IMG/VR virus record: IMGVR_UViG_3300008448_000179
Location: 1 to 43,986 of that record
Origin: a virus
Length of the DNA stretch: 43,986 nt
Reading direction: 5' to 3' (one strand)
A program made the position numbers and the translations under genes. Below the pieces are notes generated by a model. It was not told the DNA's origin. It saw only the letters and a list, made by a program, of their open reading frames with translations, and did no database searches. This document shows, one piece after another, positions 1-43,945 of this stretch (position 1 is the first letter of the stretch; every line of letters begins with the position of its first letter).

Positions 1-675
1 CCTTGCTTCGTCTTCCTCAAGATGATTCACATACCTACTAGGCCAACGCCTAGGTTCATACCCTCGCCTTTCGAGATTGATGTACACAGAGTCCGTACTC
101 TGTGGTGTATTCAGAAATACCAACTCTCCGCCGGGATTCAGGATATCTTCCAGTTCAAAGATCTGTCGTAACAGCCATTCTCGCTTCTCGACGGTATCTG
201 AGTTCTCAGGTGTCTCAATATCGTCACAGATAATCAACGGGGCGTGATGCCCTGTCTTACTTGTGCCGATACCGCAGGACCACACGGTGGGATCTTTCTG
301 CGGTCTGCTTCTTGCTCGGGACACGAACTGAAAGGCTCCGTCCTTGTCCCACTCACCCGGTCTCAGGTGTTGGCAGATGTCCATCGAATCCAGCATCTTG
401 CGGCTCAGACCAATAAAGTCCTGAGCAAGATTAGCGACACCCGATACAACGATAATTGAGATATCGGGATCTTTGTACAACCTCCAGTTGGCGTAGGCCG
501 CCGTGATGTAGGACTTGCCTACGCCACGCATACCTCGTACCTGTCGCTTTGCGGGGCCGTTGGCCAACCAGTCAGCGATGTCGTATTGAATGTAATCAGG
601 CTCAGGCAGACCCATGGCCTGCCAAGCCAGATACAGAAAGTTTCTAAAGTCACCAGTAATTTCAGGAATAATCAT
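1..675 (-). CDS. terL: Terminase large subunit (T7 gp19-like), 3' end cut off by window
   Basis: ATPase-nuclease motor that packages concatemeric DNA through the portal. The frame is open for 225 codons from ATG at 675 down to base 1 with no stop, so only the N-terminal ATPase part is present; T7 gp19 is about 586 residues. Walker A is GMRGVGKS (lysine 54) followed by YITAAYANW, and Walker B is LIICDDIE near residue 147; both match T7 gp19 closely, as does the TSKTGHHAP stretch before Walker B. It is the last gene of the late operon, just after the small terminase, as in T7. The start is set by an AGGA Shine-Dalgarno (706-709) separated from the ATG by a hairpin, described separately. The missing C-terminus should carry the nuclease. 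Confidence 0.93.
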   Translation of the reverse strand, partial: MIIPEITGDFRNFLYLAWQAMGLPEPDYIQYDIADWLANGPAKRQVRGMRGVGKSYITAAYANWRLYKDPDISIIVVSGVANLAQDFIGLSRKMLDSMDICQHLRPGEWDKDGAFQFVSRARSRPQKDPTVWSCGIGTSKTGHHAPLIICDDIETPENSDTVEKREWLLRQIFELEDILNPGGELVFLNTPQSTDSVYINLERRGYEPRRWPSRYVNHLEEDEAR

Positions 676-713: not shown

Positions 714-1004
714 TTACTTGAATGGGAGTTGAGAGGCGATCTCAGCCACTCTAGCTCCCGGAACCATGGGCTGATCAATCATGGCGGTATCCTCGCCAAG
801 CAGACGCAATGCCGCTTGGTACAGGCCAGGGGTACACTTCTCGGGATCGTCAAGATCTCGAATGATGTTACCCACCAACTTCCGCCTCAGGGTGTCGTTC
901 TGTGAACCGTCGAACTTACGCAGACGCATCTGCAGCAACGGCAACATTGACACACACTGATCGTCAGACAACATGTCAATCAATTCATTAACTTCCGGCA
1001 ACAA
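714..1004 (-). CDS. terS: Terminase small subunit-like protein (T7 gp18 position)
   Basis: DNA-recognition subunit of the packaging machine, assigned from position (between the holin-like gene and the large terminase, as T7 gp18), size (96 aa; gp18 is 89) and a helical N-terminus followed by a TPGLYQAALRLL stretch typical of podophage small terminases. The listed start is TTG at 1004, preceded by GGGGTGA, and overlaps the previous stop by 17 nt. An in-frame ATG at 974 (starting MLSDDQCV) is an alternative with a weaker ribosome site. There is no catalytic motif, as expected. Confidence 0.72.
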   Translation of the reverse strand: MLPEVNELIDMLSDDQCVSMLPLLQMRLRKFDGSQNDTLRRKLVGNIIRDLDDPEKCTPGLYQAALRLLGEDTAMIDQPMVPGARVAEIASQLPFK

Positions 1005-10730: not shown

Positions 10731-13652
10731 TTATCGTGAACGTGTTCCAACATTAACAACCGGACGCATTGGGCGATTTATACGATCATAGATTGGCTTT
10801 GCTGCCATTCGTTCTTGTGCTGACATTGCTACGAATGGAGGACCGCCTGTAGGTTGCTCACTGAGTGTCGGGAATTGAAGACTGTCATTAGTCAATCTGA
10901 TTTCGGTCAAACCGTCTTTGGCATAGATGGTTTTCCAAACAGACTGTCGCTCATCCCAATACTGTAATGCACCACCTCGTGCAAGTTGGTAATCTGGACT
11001 CATGTTACCAGGAGCCGTGTTAAAGAACGTCAGCATGTTGTCTTCATCGAACGACAAGTTCCATGTAAGATCATACATTTCTTGTGCAGTAACACCTGCC
11101 TTGGCGAATTCGATCTCTAGTAAATCCCCAAACGTATTGAACTTCACGTTAGAGTTTACTCCAAAGTGTTTGCGGTACGCTTCTTTGTAGCGTTCTGGTA
11201 TCTGTTTATTGAATACACTGGTGAGCAGATCTTGACGTTTATCGTCTTTGACATAATAACCATAAGGATCAACAAACAAATTCTTGCTACCGTCCGGCTG
11301 ATAGACAACGGCAAATCCGTTCTTGTCTAACATTGCCTTGGTTACAGCAGTGGCATCAGCCTTAGGATACAATGCCTTTGTAGACTCATAGGCTGTTTTA
11401 ATAAAGTCAACTTCTCGTTTAGATAGATTAATATTTATCATATCCAACTTATTAAGAACGTCTTTGAATTCTGTTGCACCTGCCGTCTGTCTTGCTGAAC
11501 CATCGGGATCGGCAGCCATAGCCACATTCTGAAGATATTGAGTAATTGTCATACCATTCGGTACGGACACCTTACCAGTGTCATCAACAATGTTTTGGAC
11601 ATGAGCAAGTTGGATTAACTGAATATCTGTAAGTTGACTCTCTTTTGAATTGCGAAGATAGGATCTGATACTCGGATTCTCAAATCCATTCCAAGACCTG
11701 AACAAAGCAATTCCTCTCATCACCTCAAAAGGACTGCTTGAAGAAAGGTCTTTAGCAATCTCTTCAACATAGTTCAGAGTTGGATTTTCTCCGTTCATTG
11801 TTTGCTTGTCTCGCATGGCCATTGCACTAGCAAGACGCAACTGTTCGTTCTGGTCTCCTGGTTCTCTGCTGTTTACCAACTGTTTGATTCGATCAGAAGA
11901 AAACCCTAGAGATTCATAGCCACGAATACCGTCACTGATTATCGTTGGATTTCTAGTTTCTTGACTGGGAAGAACAAGTTTGTCCACAAGTTGTCCGATT
12001 TTAACACCGCTTCTTTGTGCTTGCATAATCTGATCAACGGTAACCCCTTTCTTTGGTTTACCGTCTTTGTCAGTATTGTCTTTAGTTCTAAAAGACTTGC
12101 TGACATCAATAGCAGCCTGAAGAATCATGTCTTTGGCATCGTCTTGTCCGAACGTCAATGCCGTAGAAAAGTCACCTGTCACAAGAATCTTATTGAGTTC
12201 GTCTTCAGAGAATAACGGACTGCCGTCAGTCGGATTCATCATACTTCGGAGTTGATCAACAAGAACAAAATCTCCGACTGTACTGTTTGATGGTGTACCG
12301 TCTGTGTTCATCAGCCATTCTTTGGCATGTTCGGATGGCTGTGCGCCCGTAAACGAACGTGCAACAGAAGAAAGTGCAATATTTTCTAGTGCTTTTGTTC
12401 CATTGCTTTGAACTCGATTCAATGCTTCAGACGTTCCGGCTGTTCGTGTAAAGAATGGAGTTGCCTTAAATATCTGATTCATGTTGTAGGCAACTTCAGC
12501 CAATTCTTGAGGATTACTGGTAGAGGAAATATCAGAAGACAATCCCGTAATGGCCTGATTAACAGCCTGTTCGATCTTGCTTTTGAAGGATATTTGATCG
12601 GTAGGACTGAGCGTCTTTGCAAACTCTTCTGCGTTAGTTAGTGAATCGACAAAGTATTGTGCGCCAAACTTAATTGATTTTTCAATGTTGTCTACGCGCA
12701 TTTTGATTTGGGCCTGTTGAGTTTCGTCTTGAATCTTGATCCCAAATTTCTGTGCAGTTATAATACCTTGTTTTTCGATAGATTCTTTTAGAATCGGATC
12801 ATTCGTAGGAAGACCAGTTTCATTGTTCCATATGATTCTAGGGTCTAGATTTGTATCTCTGATATTGAAACCAATCAACTGAATTACACCATTGACACCA
12901 TTAGTAGCAACGAAATCTCGTGTGCCTTTATCAACGTCAAACTTATCTGATATAATACCAGAACTTACACTCGACAGTTCGTTTGCTTTTTTGCGCAAAT
13001 CCAGGACTTCAGTCCTTTTCTGTTCTATTTGTTTCTGGATTAGATCTTTTTGTGTCACTCCAAAACGAGTTTGAGCGGCAATGATTTTTTCTTGTGCTTT
13101 AAGATTGCCTTCGTATTGTTTAGAGAGTTGTTCCAAGTTCTGTGCAGCAACAACAAAGTTTCCGTCAACTTCGTATGTATATTTGACGGCCTCTAGGTTT
13201 ACATCCAGCAGTTGAAGAGCGGTCTCAGATTGTCTCTTGAGATAGTCCTCTCGTTCTTTTGCTGCAGTCTTCTGGAGTTCTTCGTTATATTTGCTGATGG
13301 TTTGCTTTACACCAACAAGACCTTCAGTCGCTGCGGTACGAATAGCAGGAGGAAGAGCACCTGTAGTGCTCATCTCTGTCTGATAAAAGTCTTCAAGAAT
13401 ACCGAGATCGTTATTGTTTGTAGCCTCCAGTTTGGCGGCTGCTTCTCGTTCTTGGTATGACTGAATCTTTGATTTTGTTTGCAGATTGATCACGTCAGAC
13501 GCAGCACCTGCAACAGCAGGAACAAGTCCGGCGATCTGAGCGAACAAAGACTGCTTCTGCTCGACCTGTACGGTCGGTTGCATAGCAGGATTAAACGTGG
13601 TCTGGCTTTGGTATTGACCAGGGCCTGGACCAAATGTGGGCATTCGTGACAT
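10731..13652 (-). CDS. Internal virion protein (T7 gp15-like)
   Basis: 973 aa, between the gp14-like and gp16-like genes; T7 gp15 is 747 aa. Soluble, helical and Gln/Lys/Glu-rich, with a long coiled-coil-like N-terminal part (about residues 60-230, e.g. NEELQKTAAKEREDYLKRQS), as in gp15 proteins that form the periplasmic part of the ejection channel. No signal peptide or membrane helix. N-terminus begins MSRMPTFGPGPGQYQ. Start ATG 13652 with AGGAG 7 nt upstream. Assignment rests on gene order, size and helical character rather than a catalytic motif. Confidence 0.82.
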   Translation of the reverse strand: MSRMPTFGPGPGQYQSQTTFNPAMQPTVQVEQKQSLFAQIAGLVPAVAGAASDVINLQTKSKIQSYQEREAAAKLEATNNNDLGILEDFYQTEMSTTGALPPAIRTAATEGLVGVKQTISKYNEELQKTAAKEREDYLKRQSETALQLLDVNLEAVKYTYEVDGNFVVAAQNLEQLSKQYEGNLKAQEKIIAAQTRFGVTQKDLIQKQIEQKRTEVLDLRKKANELSSVSSGIISDKFDVDKGTRDFVATNGVNGVIQLIGFNIRDTNLDPRIIWNNETGLPTNDPILKESIEKQGIITAQKFGIKIQDETQQAQIKMRVDNIEKSIKFGAQYFVDSLTNAEEFAKTLSPTDQISFKSKIEQAVNQAITGLSSDISSTSNPQELAEVAYNMNQIFKATPFFTRTAGTSEALNRVQSNGTKALENIALSSVARSFTGAQPSEHAKEWLMNTDGTPSNSTVGDFVLVDQLRSMMNPTDGSPLFSEDELNKILVTGDFSTALTFGQDDAKDMILQAAIDVSKSFRTKDNTDKDGKPKKGVTVDQIMQAQRSGVKIGQLVDKLVLPSQETRNPTIISDGIRGYESLGFSSDRIKQLVNSREPGDQNEQLRLASAMAMRDKQTMNGENPTLNYVEEIAKDLSSSSPFEVMRGIALFRSWNGFENPSIRSYLRNSKESQLTDIQLIQLAHVQNIVDDTGKVSVPNGMTITQYLQNVAMAADPDGSARQTAGATEFKDVLNKLDMININLSKREVDFIKTAYESTKALYPKADATAVTKAMLDKNGFAVVYQPDGSKNLFVDPYGYYVKDDKRQDLLTSVFNKQIPERYKEAYRKHFGVNSNVKFNTFGDLLEIEFAKAGVTAQEMYDLTWNLSFDEDNMLTFFNTAPGNMSPDYQLARGGALQYWDERQSVWKTIYAKDGLTEIRLTNDSLQFPTLSEQPTGGPPFVAMSAQERMAAKPIYDRINRPMRPVVNVGTRSR

Positions 13653-35126: not shown

Positions 35127-36512
35127 TTATAAAAAGTCGTCGATGTTGAACACACTTACGGGTGAAGAAATACCAGGACGAAACAACGTGTTGGATGATG
35201 CGGCAAGGATCTCGGACCACGACAGTGTATCGAGCGCAAGGTATCCCGCTCGTGTCAGGTGAATGGTGTCGCTGAAGTAGCCTGCCGTAACCATGTCACC
35301 AAGTGTAGTGATTTCTGAGTAGTCAACTAAGCACACACGTTGCTCTTGTGCGTTGAATCGAAGTTGACTCTTCAACGCCGAACGATATGTGATCAGCGGG
35401 GACTCGGTGGCGGGTGCGTTGACGGGGTGTGAGCATGTCATTCGGAACGCAATGTTGCTGACATCTCGTCCTGATGCTGTCCACTTCGCCTCGATAATCG
35501 CAACGAGTTGTTGCATGTACCAGACATAGTTGTTGACGTGGGCCGGAGTACCTTGGACGGGTGCGCCTGCCGCAACGTTTGTTTCTGAGGTTTGATTAGA
35601 ACCTTCGTAGATGTCAAACACAGCACAATGATTCGCTTTGGTTGCGCCTTGATACTCAGTCAGCACATCGAAGTAATGATCCCACGATGTTTGTGGAAAC
35701 GCATTGAGACACATGTACATATCGTACGCTGATCGTCCGCCCATCGAGTAGAACGGAGACATGGCAATGCCGTTTGTCTTGTTGGTACGAGCGGCACGCA
35801 TGTAGGTCAAGAACAGCGGACCACTCATCGTCGCAGGATTCCATCCTTCGTGAGTACGAAACTCGATGGGATAGTTTCGAGTTGCAGCCGCTAGGTTGTA
35901 AGTCGTCTTCCTGATCGAGCCAGCCGTTCCCAGGTAGCCGATAGTCGGAAAGTTGTACAGCGATGTGAAGGGCGCGTTGGCCCTTCGCAAGATTGGCTTG
36001 ATAGAGCCGCCAGATTCTGGGTCGTTGTTGACACCCCAGAAGTTGAAGGTAAGCGCATCGTTCACAGGAATGACAGATGACTCGTTGATCTGCAGACCAG
36101 TCGGAGTGGTCAGGCTCTGGCTAGAGGTCACATGCAAAGGCCACACGGGGCCAACATCAGCGGTGGGTGCTGAAGACCAGTTCATGTGCTGTAGCAAGTG
36201 AGCCGCAGCCGTAGTGACTTGACTGCCAGTAGCAGTTCCAAGTCCGGAGTTGGCGATGTACTGTACAACCTTGTTGGATGTACTGGAATCCCAGTAACCG
36301 ACACCTGCGCCTAGTGCCTTGTTCTCAAGGAACGAATAAGCGGCTGTAGCGTACACACCGTAGGTGGTGTTCAGGCTTTCTTGGACAGCGGTGTCCCATC
36401 CGTTGCCTCCTTGAAGACCTTCGGAGTTGTAGATGCCAACAATATCAACACGTTGAGTTGCGGCTTTTTCAACGATGTTCTTCAGAACAGTTCTGTTGTA
36501 AACTTTAGGCAT
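35127..36512 (-). CDS. SGNH/GDSL-type hydrolase, probably virion-associated
   Basis: 461 aa. Block I is altered but recognisable: VDIVGIYNSEGLQGGNGWD with serine 30 as likely nucleophile, in the style of marine phage proteins beginning with a G-D-S-N-type turn followed by GG.G.D. Block V is SDTIHLTRAGYLAL with aspartate 415 and histidine 418. The middle is large and beta-rich, with many aromatics. Such enzymes remove acyl groups from polysaccharide or lipid on the cell surface. It is unusual among early/middle genes: it sits with two small genes between promoter-like element B and a terminator. Start ATG 36512 after GGAGG. Confidence 0.68.
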   Translation of the reverse strand: MPKVYNRTVLKNIVEKAATQRVDIVGIYNSEGLQGGNGWDTAVQESLNTTYGVYATAAYSFLENKALGAGVGYWDSSTSNKVVQYIANSGLGTATGSQVTTAAAHLLQHMNWSSAPTADVGPVWPLHVTSSQSLTTPTGLQINESSVIPVNDALTFNFWGVNNDPESGGSIKPILRRANAPFTSLYNFPTIGYLGTAGSIRKTTYNLAAATRNYPIEFRTHEGWNPATMSGPLFLTYMRAARTNKTNGIAMSPFYSMGGRSAYDMYMCLNAFPQTSWDHYFDVLTEYQGATKANHCAVFDIYEGSNQTSETNVAAGAPVQGTPAHVNNYVWYMQQLVAIIEAKWTASGRDVSNIAFRMTCSHPVNAPATESPLITYRSALKSQLRFNAQEQRVCLVDYSEITTLGDMVTAGYFSDTIHLTRAGYLALDTLSWSEILAASSNTLFRPGISSPVSVFNIDDFL

Positions 36513-38706: not shown

Positions 38707-39198
38707 TCATCTCGCCTCGTCAATCGCTCGACAAACAATCGGATTCTTGCGTGCATGGGTGAGACTGTCGCTATGGCGAACAAAGTCCGCTGAAGTCCAG
38801 AACACAACTACAGTATCAGCCAACACACGAATGGCCTCTTCAAGTTCGGCAATCCGTTCTTTTTGGGAAGGGTCGCTCGGCGTTTGTGGTTCATCGCCAT
38901 AGACCTGCTCATTGTCGTAGACCCGTGCTTCGCCGTAGACCCGCGTATTGCCGTAGATCCATGCTTTGCCGCCGACCACCGCATTGCCGCAGACATGCGC
39001 ATTGCCGCAGACATGCGCATTGCCGACGATCATCGCATTGCCGTAGACATGCGCATTGTCGTAGACCCGCGCAGTGCGTCCGACATATGCCGTATCCGCA
39101 ACAGTCGCAGTGTCAGCAACCCAACCGCCGCCGTTGGGGTGTTGATGCGCCGGGACCAGACCGTTGCCGTCGTTGAAATCGTAAGTGGTTTCGCTCAT
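38707..39198 (-). CDS. Beta-solenoid repeat protein (YdcK-like)
   Basis: 163 aa. After a short N-terminus (MSETTYDFNDGNGLVPAHQH) there are about a dozen six-residue turns of the type [VI]-x-G-N-A-x, e.g. VYDNAHVYGNAMIVGNAHV, VCGNAVVGGKAWIYGNTRV, running to about residue 100: a left-handed or YdcK-type beta solenoid. A charged helix follows (KERIAELEEAIRVLADTVV) and a short tail. Such repeat domains act in trimeric or surface proteins; the role in a phage early region is unknown. The DNA shows 18-bp repeats. ATG 39198 is chosen because it follows the repeated GGAGAACAAGCG ribosome site. Confidence 0.8.
   Translation of the reverse strand: MSETTYDFNDGNGLVPAHQHPNGGGWVADTATVADTAYVGRTARVYDNAHVYGNAMIVGNAHVCGNAHVCGNAVVGGKAWIYGNTRVYGEARVYDNEQVYGDEPQTPSDPSQKERIAELEEAIRVLADTVVVFWTSADFVRHSDSLTHARKNPIVCRAIDEAR
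38900..39085. repeat. Tandem 18-bp repeats coding the beta-solenoid turns
   Basis: Imperfect units such as ATTGCCGCAGACATGCGC on the plus strand, two of them identical and adjacent near 38986-39021. Each unit is one six-residue turn. Such repeats can expand or contract by slippage. Confidence 0.8.
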
Positions 39199-43011: not shown

Positions 43012-43332
43012 TTAGACTACTTCACCCTTTACAATGTCGGCATCCTCACGGATGATAGCCGAAACGATGCGCGCGCCGTTTGCGTCGATCGTCCGACCAT
43101 TGGGCGTGATTATGCGAATGTTCACGGACGCGGGGAACGCGCCGATCTTAGACAATGCGGCGTTTCGGCGGTCGATAGACTCGCGGACACGCGCAGTGTA
43201 TTCGGCTAGAATCGCGTCCGCGTTCAAGTGTCCAACCGCAACCCTATCAAGGGTGAGCGCGTTCAATCCCTTGGGCATGCGGATTGAACGGTATTCGGTG
43301 AATGCTTCGGCCAATGCTTCAGACTTGTTCAT
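43012..43332 (-). CDS. First early protein, unknown function
   Basis: 106 aa from ATG 43332 (GGAG 7 nt upstream). MNKSEALAEAFTEYRSIRMP, then KGLNALTLDRVAVGHLNADA, a charged helix (EYTARVRESIDRRNAALSKI) and a beta-rich end (SVNIRIITPNGRTIDANGAR, IIREDADIVKGEVV). No family recognised. It is the first gene read from the strong sigma70 promoter, the place where T7 has its anti-restriction Ocr; this protein is not Ocr-like (not acidic overall). Confidence 0.72.
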   Translation of the reverse strand: MNKSEALAEAFTEYRSIRMPKGLNALTLDRVAVGHLNADAILAEYTARVRESIDRRNAALSKIGAFPASVNIRIITPNGRTIDANGARIVSAIIREDADIVKGEVV

Positions 43333-43358
43333 GATACGCTCCAAACTGTCAAACCTTC

Positions 43359-43400
43359 TCGGGATTCGGTCGGCAAACCGTTTGCAAACTCGAATCCCGA
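43359..43400 (-). promoter_or_regulatory. Nested inverted repeats at the 5' end of the first early transcript
   Basis: 10-bp perfect arms TCGGGATTCG (43359-43368) and CGAATCCCGA (43391-43400); the loop holds a further 6-bp dyad GCAAAC/GTTTGC (43373-43385). The predicted transcription start is at about 43401, so the mRNA would begin with this structure: stability hairpin or operator. Confidence 0.6.
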
Positions 43401-43407
43401 CACCACA

Positions 43408-43435
43408 AGTATACCCTCTCTATCGGCGTTGTCAA
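43408..43435 (-). promoter_or_regulatory. Strong sigma70 promoter for early genes
   Basis: Minus strand TTGACA (43435-43430), 16-nt spacer, TATACT (43413-43408). Best host-type promoter seen in the window, about 75 nt upstream of the first early gene and pointing along the genome. Preceded by an A-rich stretch (GAAAAAAGAAAAAAAG) that resembles an UP element. Confidence 0.82.
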
Positions 43436-43483
43436 GCGGTTTGCGCATCTTTTTTTCTTTTTTCGATCAGATTTGTGAATAAA

Positions 43484-43515: not shown

Positions 43516-43610
43516 CTACGATCCCTCTGTACGCGTTCCAACGCGTCACCCATACCCTCGGCCACCCCCACGAACGGACGCGCCTAGGGGCATCCAGACG
43601 CGACCACGGC

Positions 43611-43945
43611 AAATCGGACAAGCGCATCCGATTTGGACTCGTCAAATCGGACAACCCTATCCGATATTCGGATCAAATCGGACAAGTATATCCGAAAATG
43701 GCGACAAATCGGACAATCGTATCCGAAAAGGGCAGGTATCCCGATATTTGGATCTTTTTATCCAGAATAGGCGGTATTGCGGACAATGTTATCCGATTTG
43801 ACCCTGGACGACCCGAATACTGGACAAGGTTGTCCGATTTGGGGTGTCATTGCGGACAAATCTATCCGATTTGATCGGCGATAGTGGACAAGGTTGTCCG
43901 ATTTGAACGGGATACTGGAGAGAGTTATCCGATTTGCTCGCGGGG
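43611..43945. repeat. Array of about ten dyad iterons at the early end
   Basis: Each unit is a dyad: [AAATC or variant]GGACAA, 2-5 nt, T(A/G)TCCGATTT. Cores GGACAA start at 43616, 43649, 43680, 43711, 43781, 43822, 43854 and 43886, with degenerate units at 43750 and 43917. Steps are mostly 31-33 bp (three helical turns). No coding frame explains it. The right edge (43940-43986) is G-rich non-repeat. Confidence 0.88.

Follow-up and report, generated by a model that had tools for sequence, protein, structure and literature searches.

A conserved array of opposed dyad repeats in the concatemer junction of a T7-like phage, possibly a counterpart of the T7 left-end repeats

The window and its early end

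The virus record IMGVR_UViG_3300008448_000179 is linear, comprises 43,986 bp without end repeats (this whole stretch is called the window below) and encodes a T7-like RNA polymerase, a primase-helicase, a DNA polymerase, a head-tail adaptor and head and tail proteins. Because all of its main genes are found on the minus strand, the early end is the right side of the window. A close cultured phage was not found: the best RNA polymerase matches, mostly from phages of Alpha-, Beta- and Gammaproteobacteria, reach ~33% identity, and a megablast search with the window returned a sole match of 120 bp. Its near relative in IMG/VR is UViG 3300032296_001139 (44,980 bp; loci L005, L055, L315 and L318), with an RNA polymerase 93% identical to that of the window and with early genes near the array described below that diverge to ~74%. 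Searches for further relatives via the DNA polymerase and the first gene yielded only short or partial contigs besides this one.

The following features flank the early end, with the terminase genes at the opposite edge of the window:

1 to 675, minus strand: terminase large subunit, start only, cut by the window edge (the gene end and ~300 bp of non-coding DNA are absent)
714 to 992, minus strand: terminase small subunit-like gene (phrog_1351, E 3e-5), on the opposite side of the junction
43012 to 43332, minus strand: first early gene; its 106-aa product shares 91% identity with the relative and has neither a known family nor a known fold
43360 to 43399, minus strand: leader hairpin at the 5' end of the first early transcript (43320-43405 folds at -28.7 kcal/mol, z -2.6)
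43408 to 43435, minus strand: early promoter, sigma-70-type TTGACA-N16-TATACT (11/12 matches; hexamers kept in the relative)

Upstream of the early promoter, a T-rich stretch at ~43449-43466 (an A-tract on the minus strand) is likewise kept in the relative. The window starts within the terminase gene and stops just beyond the array, so that ~1.4 kb between its two ends are absent, while the contig of the relative spans the junction and reads terminase large subunit, terminator-like hairpin, non-coding DNA, array, early promoter and first gene, with ~300 bp of non-coding DNA between the array and the terminase. Since the relative has the array between the terminase and the first early promoter, we place it at the concatemer junction, which bears out the early-end position proposed in an initial annotation of this DNA. 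The right edge of the window itself need not be a physical genome end.

Ten dyads in two opposed blocks

The array at 43610-43936 comprises ten copies of a 26-bp dyad, nine of them good and one degenerate, with the consensus CAAATCGGACAA-N3-T(A/G)TCCGATTTG, in agreement with the initial annotation, which had described about ten copies at 43611-43945:

43610 to 43635, plus strand: unit 1, CAAATCGGACAAGCGCATCCGATTTG, extended arm at both sides
43643 to 43668, plus strand: unit 2, extended arm at left
43674 to 43699, plus strand: unit 3, extended arm at left
43705 to 43730, plus strand: unit 4, extended arm at left
43744 to 43769, no strand assigned: unit 5, degenerate central dyad GGATCTTTTTATCC
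43775 to 43800, minus strand: unit 6, extended arm at right
43816 to 43841, minus strand: unit 7, extended arm at right
43848 to 43873, minus strand: unit 8, extended arm at right
43880 to 43905, minus strand: unit 9, extended arm at right
43911 to 43936, minus strand: unit 10, left arm weak, extended arm at right

The 18-mers within these units start at 43614, 43647, 43678, 43709, 43748 (degenerate), 43779, 43820, 43852, 43884 and 43915. Nine sites in the array fall within 4 mismatches of TCGGACAANNNTATCCGA, whereas 1000 dinucleotide shuffles yield 0.12 on average and never more than 2, so that the repeats pass the comparison with shuffled sequence on which the initial annotation had made them depend. 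A pattern-free count gives the same picture, with 9-mer pairs numbering 74 (direct) and 62 (inverted) where shuffles yield 0.5 and 1.1, and no second comparable cluster was found elsewhere in the window.

Several other accounts of the repeats were rejected. Coding repeats are incompatible with a 31-bp period, which cannot stay in frame, and with the lack of any ORF across the array; an RNA element or tRNA is contradicted by the lack of any Rfam or tRNA match; and an array of promoters for the phage RNA polymerase finds no common promoter word in the intergenic regions. The whole array folds strongly as single-stranded DNA (z -6.9) because the dyad units pair mutually, though a C opposite A in most stems speaks against a selected single-stranded hairpin element.

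From unit 1 to unit 10, the centre-to-centre steps are 33, 31, 31, 39, 31, 41, 32, 32 and 31 bp. The spacing of 31-33 bp that had been reported for most copies thus holds for seven steps and is broken by two of 39 and 41 bp. This matters for helical phasing. At 10.5 bp per turn, units 1-4 are strongly coherent (R 0.94), and so are units 5-10 (R 0.96), yet coherence over all ten units is poor (R 0.39, p 0.24), since the steps of 39 and 41 bp turn the second block by ~85-140 degrees. The earlier proposal that all units face one side of the helix therefore stands for each block taken separately and not for the array as a whole. Each single unit is asymmetric, with a five-base extension CAAAT on one side that lies at the left in units 1-4, at the right in units 6-10 and at both sides in unit 1. 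Overall, the units mirror one another around the degenerate unit 5 and do not form a simple tandem.

The strong promoter lies downstream of the array at a distance of ~170 bp and is directly followed by a conserved first gene, so a phage-encoded early regulator might bind these sites and tune this single strong early promoter. We consider this improbable: the sites lie off the promoter and none are found at other genes, a scan of early proteins turned up no DNA-binding family, neither helix-turn-helix nor ribbon-helix-helix, and the model of the first gene product (pLDDT 84) matches no DNA-binding fold. The first early protein itself, whose predicted structure has no recognised fold, was rejected as the binder of the array.

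Arms are retained while units turn over

The array is also present in UViG 3300032296_001139, with two units fewer. Comparing the units common to these two genomes, with units 5 and 9 counted separately, changes affect 1/90 arm sites, 2/64 sites in the flanking four bases, 3/18 sites in the three-base spacers and 9/46 linker sites (Fisher p 0.014 for arms vs spacers and 4e-5 for arms and flanks vs spacers and linkers), though most of the linker changes go back to a single event. This is not what had been claimed at the outset, namely that the arms vary together more than the linkers do. Unit 5 with its flanks (43735-43776) has no change at 41 sites, and unit 9 has decayed in the relative, with 3/15 arm changes.

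Units 6 and 7 form a 73-bp pair that is missing from the relative. The single event behind most linker changes concerns the 7-bp linker that joins unit 1 to unit 2 (43636-43642), which reads GACTCGT in the window and is exactly inverted (ACGAGTC) in the relative (L055). An inversion between inverted arms would be a sign of a hairpin-mediated event. Both the lost or gained pair and the inverted linker point to repeat-driven rearrangement, as a neutral expansion of tandem or inverted repeats would produce, but we find a purely neutral origin hard to credit, since the arms are conserved far more than the spacers and linkers and the array has been kept overall though the adjacent early genes diverge to ~74%. 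Judging from the two sequences, units turn over by repeat-driven events with their arms retained, as expected of protein-binding sites under selection, and we regard the array as a genuine, selected cluster of putative binding dyads at the concatemer junction.

Dyads of the same class beside hicAB and inside phage genes

The core TCGGACAA-N3-TATCCGA occurs exactly, in pairs with a spacing of 31 bp, across the hicA promoter in Brucella and related prophages, and a dyad GGACA-N4-T(A/G)TCC with pairs at 31-33 bp, the core and spacing also found in the array, adjoins hicAB in around two dozen loci; these matches and those to DUF3102 genes below were obtained by querying with the sequence of the array itself, and the collection is large enough for the hit total to lie near chance expectation. 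Across alphaproteobacterial phages and genomes, hicAB operons (L010, L020, L026, L116, L120, L153, L185-L190 and others) carry paired GGACA-N4-T(A/G)TCC dyads 31 bp apart upstream of hicA, with HicB diverging to 33% identity. Such paired dyads would seem to be a general operator layout, and the sites beside hicAB are consistent with the binding of HicB to palindromic operators (PMC10865869, PMC11594946). These operators comprise two sites over the promoter beside hicAB, whereas the array has ten sites and overlaps no promoter; it does not lie at a hicAB promoter, and tblastn finds neither HicA nor HicB in the window.

A pattern search with the extended half-site detected full 26-bp palindromes in other phages, several of them within DUF3102 genes. 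The array resembles these in its 26-bp length, its CAAA/TTTG ends and the half-site CAAATCGGACAA, which is identical to that of perfect 26-bp palindromes in the DUF3102 genes of L326 and L409. Unit 1 of the relative fits all specified positions of the (degenerate) 26-bp CAAA/TTTG palindrome consensus, unit 1 of the window has three mismatched pairs, and the other units are weaker. However, a DUF3102 gene has a single perfect palindrome that usually lies inside its coding sequence, whereas the array is made of many imperfect dyads in non-coding DNA, and no DUF3102 match was obtained for the window proteins scanned with Pfam. The predicted DUF3102 fold was too poor for use (pLDDT 57). We take the hicAB and DUF3102 matches as leads to the kind of protein that may bind the array, not as proof.

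The DUF3102 palindromes merit a description of their own. Phage genes of this family (PF11300) each carry one perfect palindrome of 22-28 bp, mostly at homologous codons, where shuffles reach 14-16 bp. The palindromes differ in sequence with both arms changing together (e.g., CAAAACGGACAACGTTGTCCGTTTTG, CCAAAACGCTCAGCGCTGAGCGTTTTGG and AAATCTGACAACGTTGTCAGATTT) and were located at 10475-10500 of L326, 2405-2430 of L391, 2996-3021 of L409 and 1501-1526 of phage B3 (L425), and the set also covers L430-L434, L426, L428 and L437; in phiSHP3, PM105 and Javan310, the palindrome is shorter or absent. Each looks like a DNA site inside a gene that is perhaps bound by the product of that same gene. Related palindromes cluster on the Pseudomonas aeruginosa plasmid pBT2101 (NZ_CP039991.1 164260-166517; L429 and L442), where a 2.2-kb intergenic stretch next to Mor-activator and phage-protease genes contains 11 distinct palindromes, 18-30 bp long, where shuffles average 2.5. 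Several of these match sites of different P. aeruginosa Mu-like phages, including B3 (27/27 bp), JBD18, the DUF3102 genes of Fc22/Ps59 and the repressor of Ps60 (37 bp, E 1e-4). The stretch resembles a bank of phage sites.

Based on likenesses of this kind, the array could offer operators to, or act as a sponge for, a dimeric regulator from the host or a resident prophage; its place near the early end would bring it into the cell with the leading DNA, where it would bind the regulator before phage gene expression. This is our second choice and on balance doubtful. Besides the exact core at hicA promoters, the dyads of the same class beside hicAB and the half-site shared with in-gene DUF3102 palindromes, it can draw on the P. 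aeruginosa megaplasmid, whose intergenic palindrome cluster of the same class matches several Mu-like phages, and a changing copy number fits a sponge. The dyad match is weak evidence, however, because GGACA-N4-TGTCC recurs in settings as unrelated as hicAB, arrays inside putative phage initiator genes and dispersed repeats. Paired TCGGAYA operators occur in only 1/385 alphaproteobacterial genomes, which led us to reject a common alphaproteobacterial regulator as the binder, no recognised HicB or DUF3102 is encoded in the window, and the array stands clear of the early promoter. A more specific idea is unlikely, namely that a decoy array on the DNA which is probably first into the cell titrates a regulator of the HicB/DUF3102-palindrome class, made by the host or a prophage, by DNA alone and before expression; if true, it would mean protein-free interference with the cell or a resident element by an incoming lytic T7-like phage.

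Arrays of GGACA-N4-TGTCC were also seen within putative replication initiator genes of Paenibacillus/Bacillus-type phages (L212, L215, L202, L193 and L196), where they have 22/31-34 bp spacing, encode a DKNVQS-like peptide repeat and form helically phased iterons within the gene. The phased repeats of the window are iteron-like as well, and same-core dyads at 22/32/33 bp inside these putative initiator genes of Paenibacillus-type phages would agree with a replication origin. We nevertheless rate an origin as a poor candidate, given that a T7-type primase-helicase and DNA polymerase are present, that no initiator gene was recognised among the proteins scanned and that the array has no A+T-rich melting stretch within it; a site at the extreme end of a linear genome would also be unusual.

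Left ends of T7-like phages and a possible role in genome-end processing

The order of terminase, array, promoter and first gene in the relative is that of the left-end repeats of T7-type phages (SRL), which in T7 itself are CCTAAAG repeats (~175-355) between the terminal repeat and promoter A1. Like the SRL of T7 and T3, the array consists of multi-copy repeats beside the genome end and upstream of the first host-type early promoter. The two differ in form: the T7 words are 7 bp long, directly oriented and mostly ~13 bp apart, as opposed to 26-bp dyads of unrelated sequence, mostly 31-33 bp apart and in two opposed blocks, a contrast that had been drawn correctly from the start. To our knowledge, the function of the T7 left-end repeats has never been settled.

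Regularly spaced short repeats of unrelated sequence were detected in the left-end regions of T7, LUZ100, Lo5R7ANS, S2B and RHEph21 (0/60 shuffles as good, with 1/4 control regions also positive), whereas the same test was negative for RHEph01 and BB8. This is suggestive only, by analogy, of a left-end repeat zone as a recurring T7-like feature with fast-changing sequence. The repeats of LUZ100 fall inside its annotated terminal repeat (188-237, L226), and short repeats with 11-13 bp steps were noted for this phage as well as for Mesorhizobium phage Lo5R7ANS (1-500, L227) and S2B (11315-11510, L229). The dyad array itself was absent from 80 terminase-bearing loci, six annotated phage ends and one distant relative with a DNA polymerase 43% identical; as many of the loci are short, this absence carries little weight. 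Of the search in related phages that the initial annotation had suggested, the sole close relative covering this end thus has the array, and more distant T7-like phages lack the sequence, several of them carrying other repeats at that end.

The phage P1 pac and lambda cosB sites are packaging sites with clustered protein boxes. The array, as far as its sequence tells, is similar in that its boxes fall into two groups about a fixed centre in a genome-end region.

We favour the reading that the array is a lineage-specific version of the left-end repeats of T7, in the form of long opposed dyads, and serves in end recognition or processing, with a probability of about 0.38; operators or a decoy come second, and the phage-encoded regulator, the replication origin and a neutral expansion rank lower. 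It would provide nine to ten sites for a dimeric DNA-binding protein in the junction between the terminase and the first host-type early promoter, load this protein (of phage or host) onto the concatemer junction and thereby help to mark, shape or cut the genome end. We infer dimer binding that is cooperative within each block, and likewise the purpose in end recognition or processing. This reading is preferred because the array lies at the junction and unrelated repeats occupy the same place in T7 and three or four other T7-like phages. The window has no second copy, as expected of a one-place signal, the arms are kept against changing spacers and linkers, and two blocks oppose each other around an unchanged centre. 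Conversely, most T7-like relatives with a homologous terminase have no dyad array, and a copy difference of two units together with one decayed unit between close relatives is loose for a cleavage signal. The sites of this lineage are clear, symmetric and countable, which would allow the protein that binds them to be isolated directly.

Other features of the window

Directly upstream of the RNA polymerase gene, the window encodes a 461-aa protein without known family (35127-36512, minus strand) that appears SGNH-hydrolase-like by eye; near the matching position, LUZ100, RHEph01, Lo5R7ANS, S2B and BB8 have a tyrosine integrase. An early gene for a YdcK-like beta-solenoid protein contains tandem repeats (38892-39077, minus strand), and the contig of the relative breaks at this same place.
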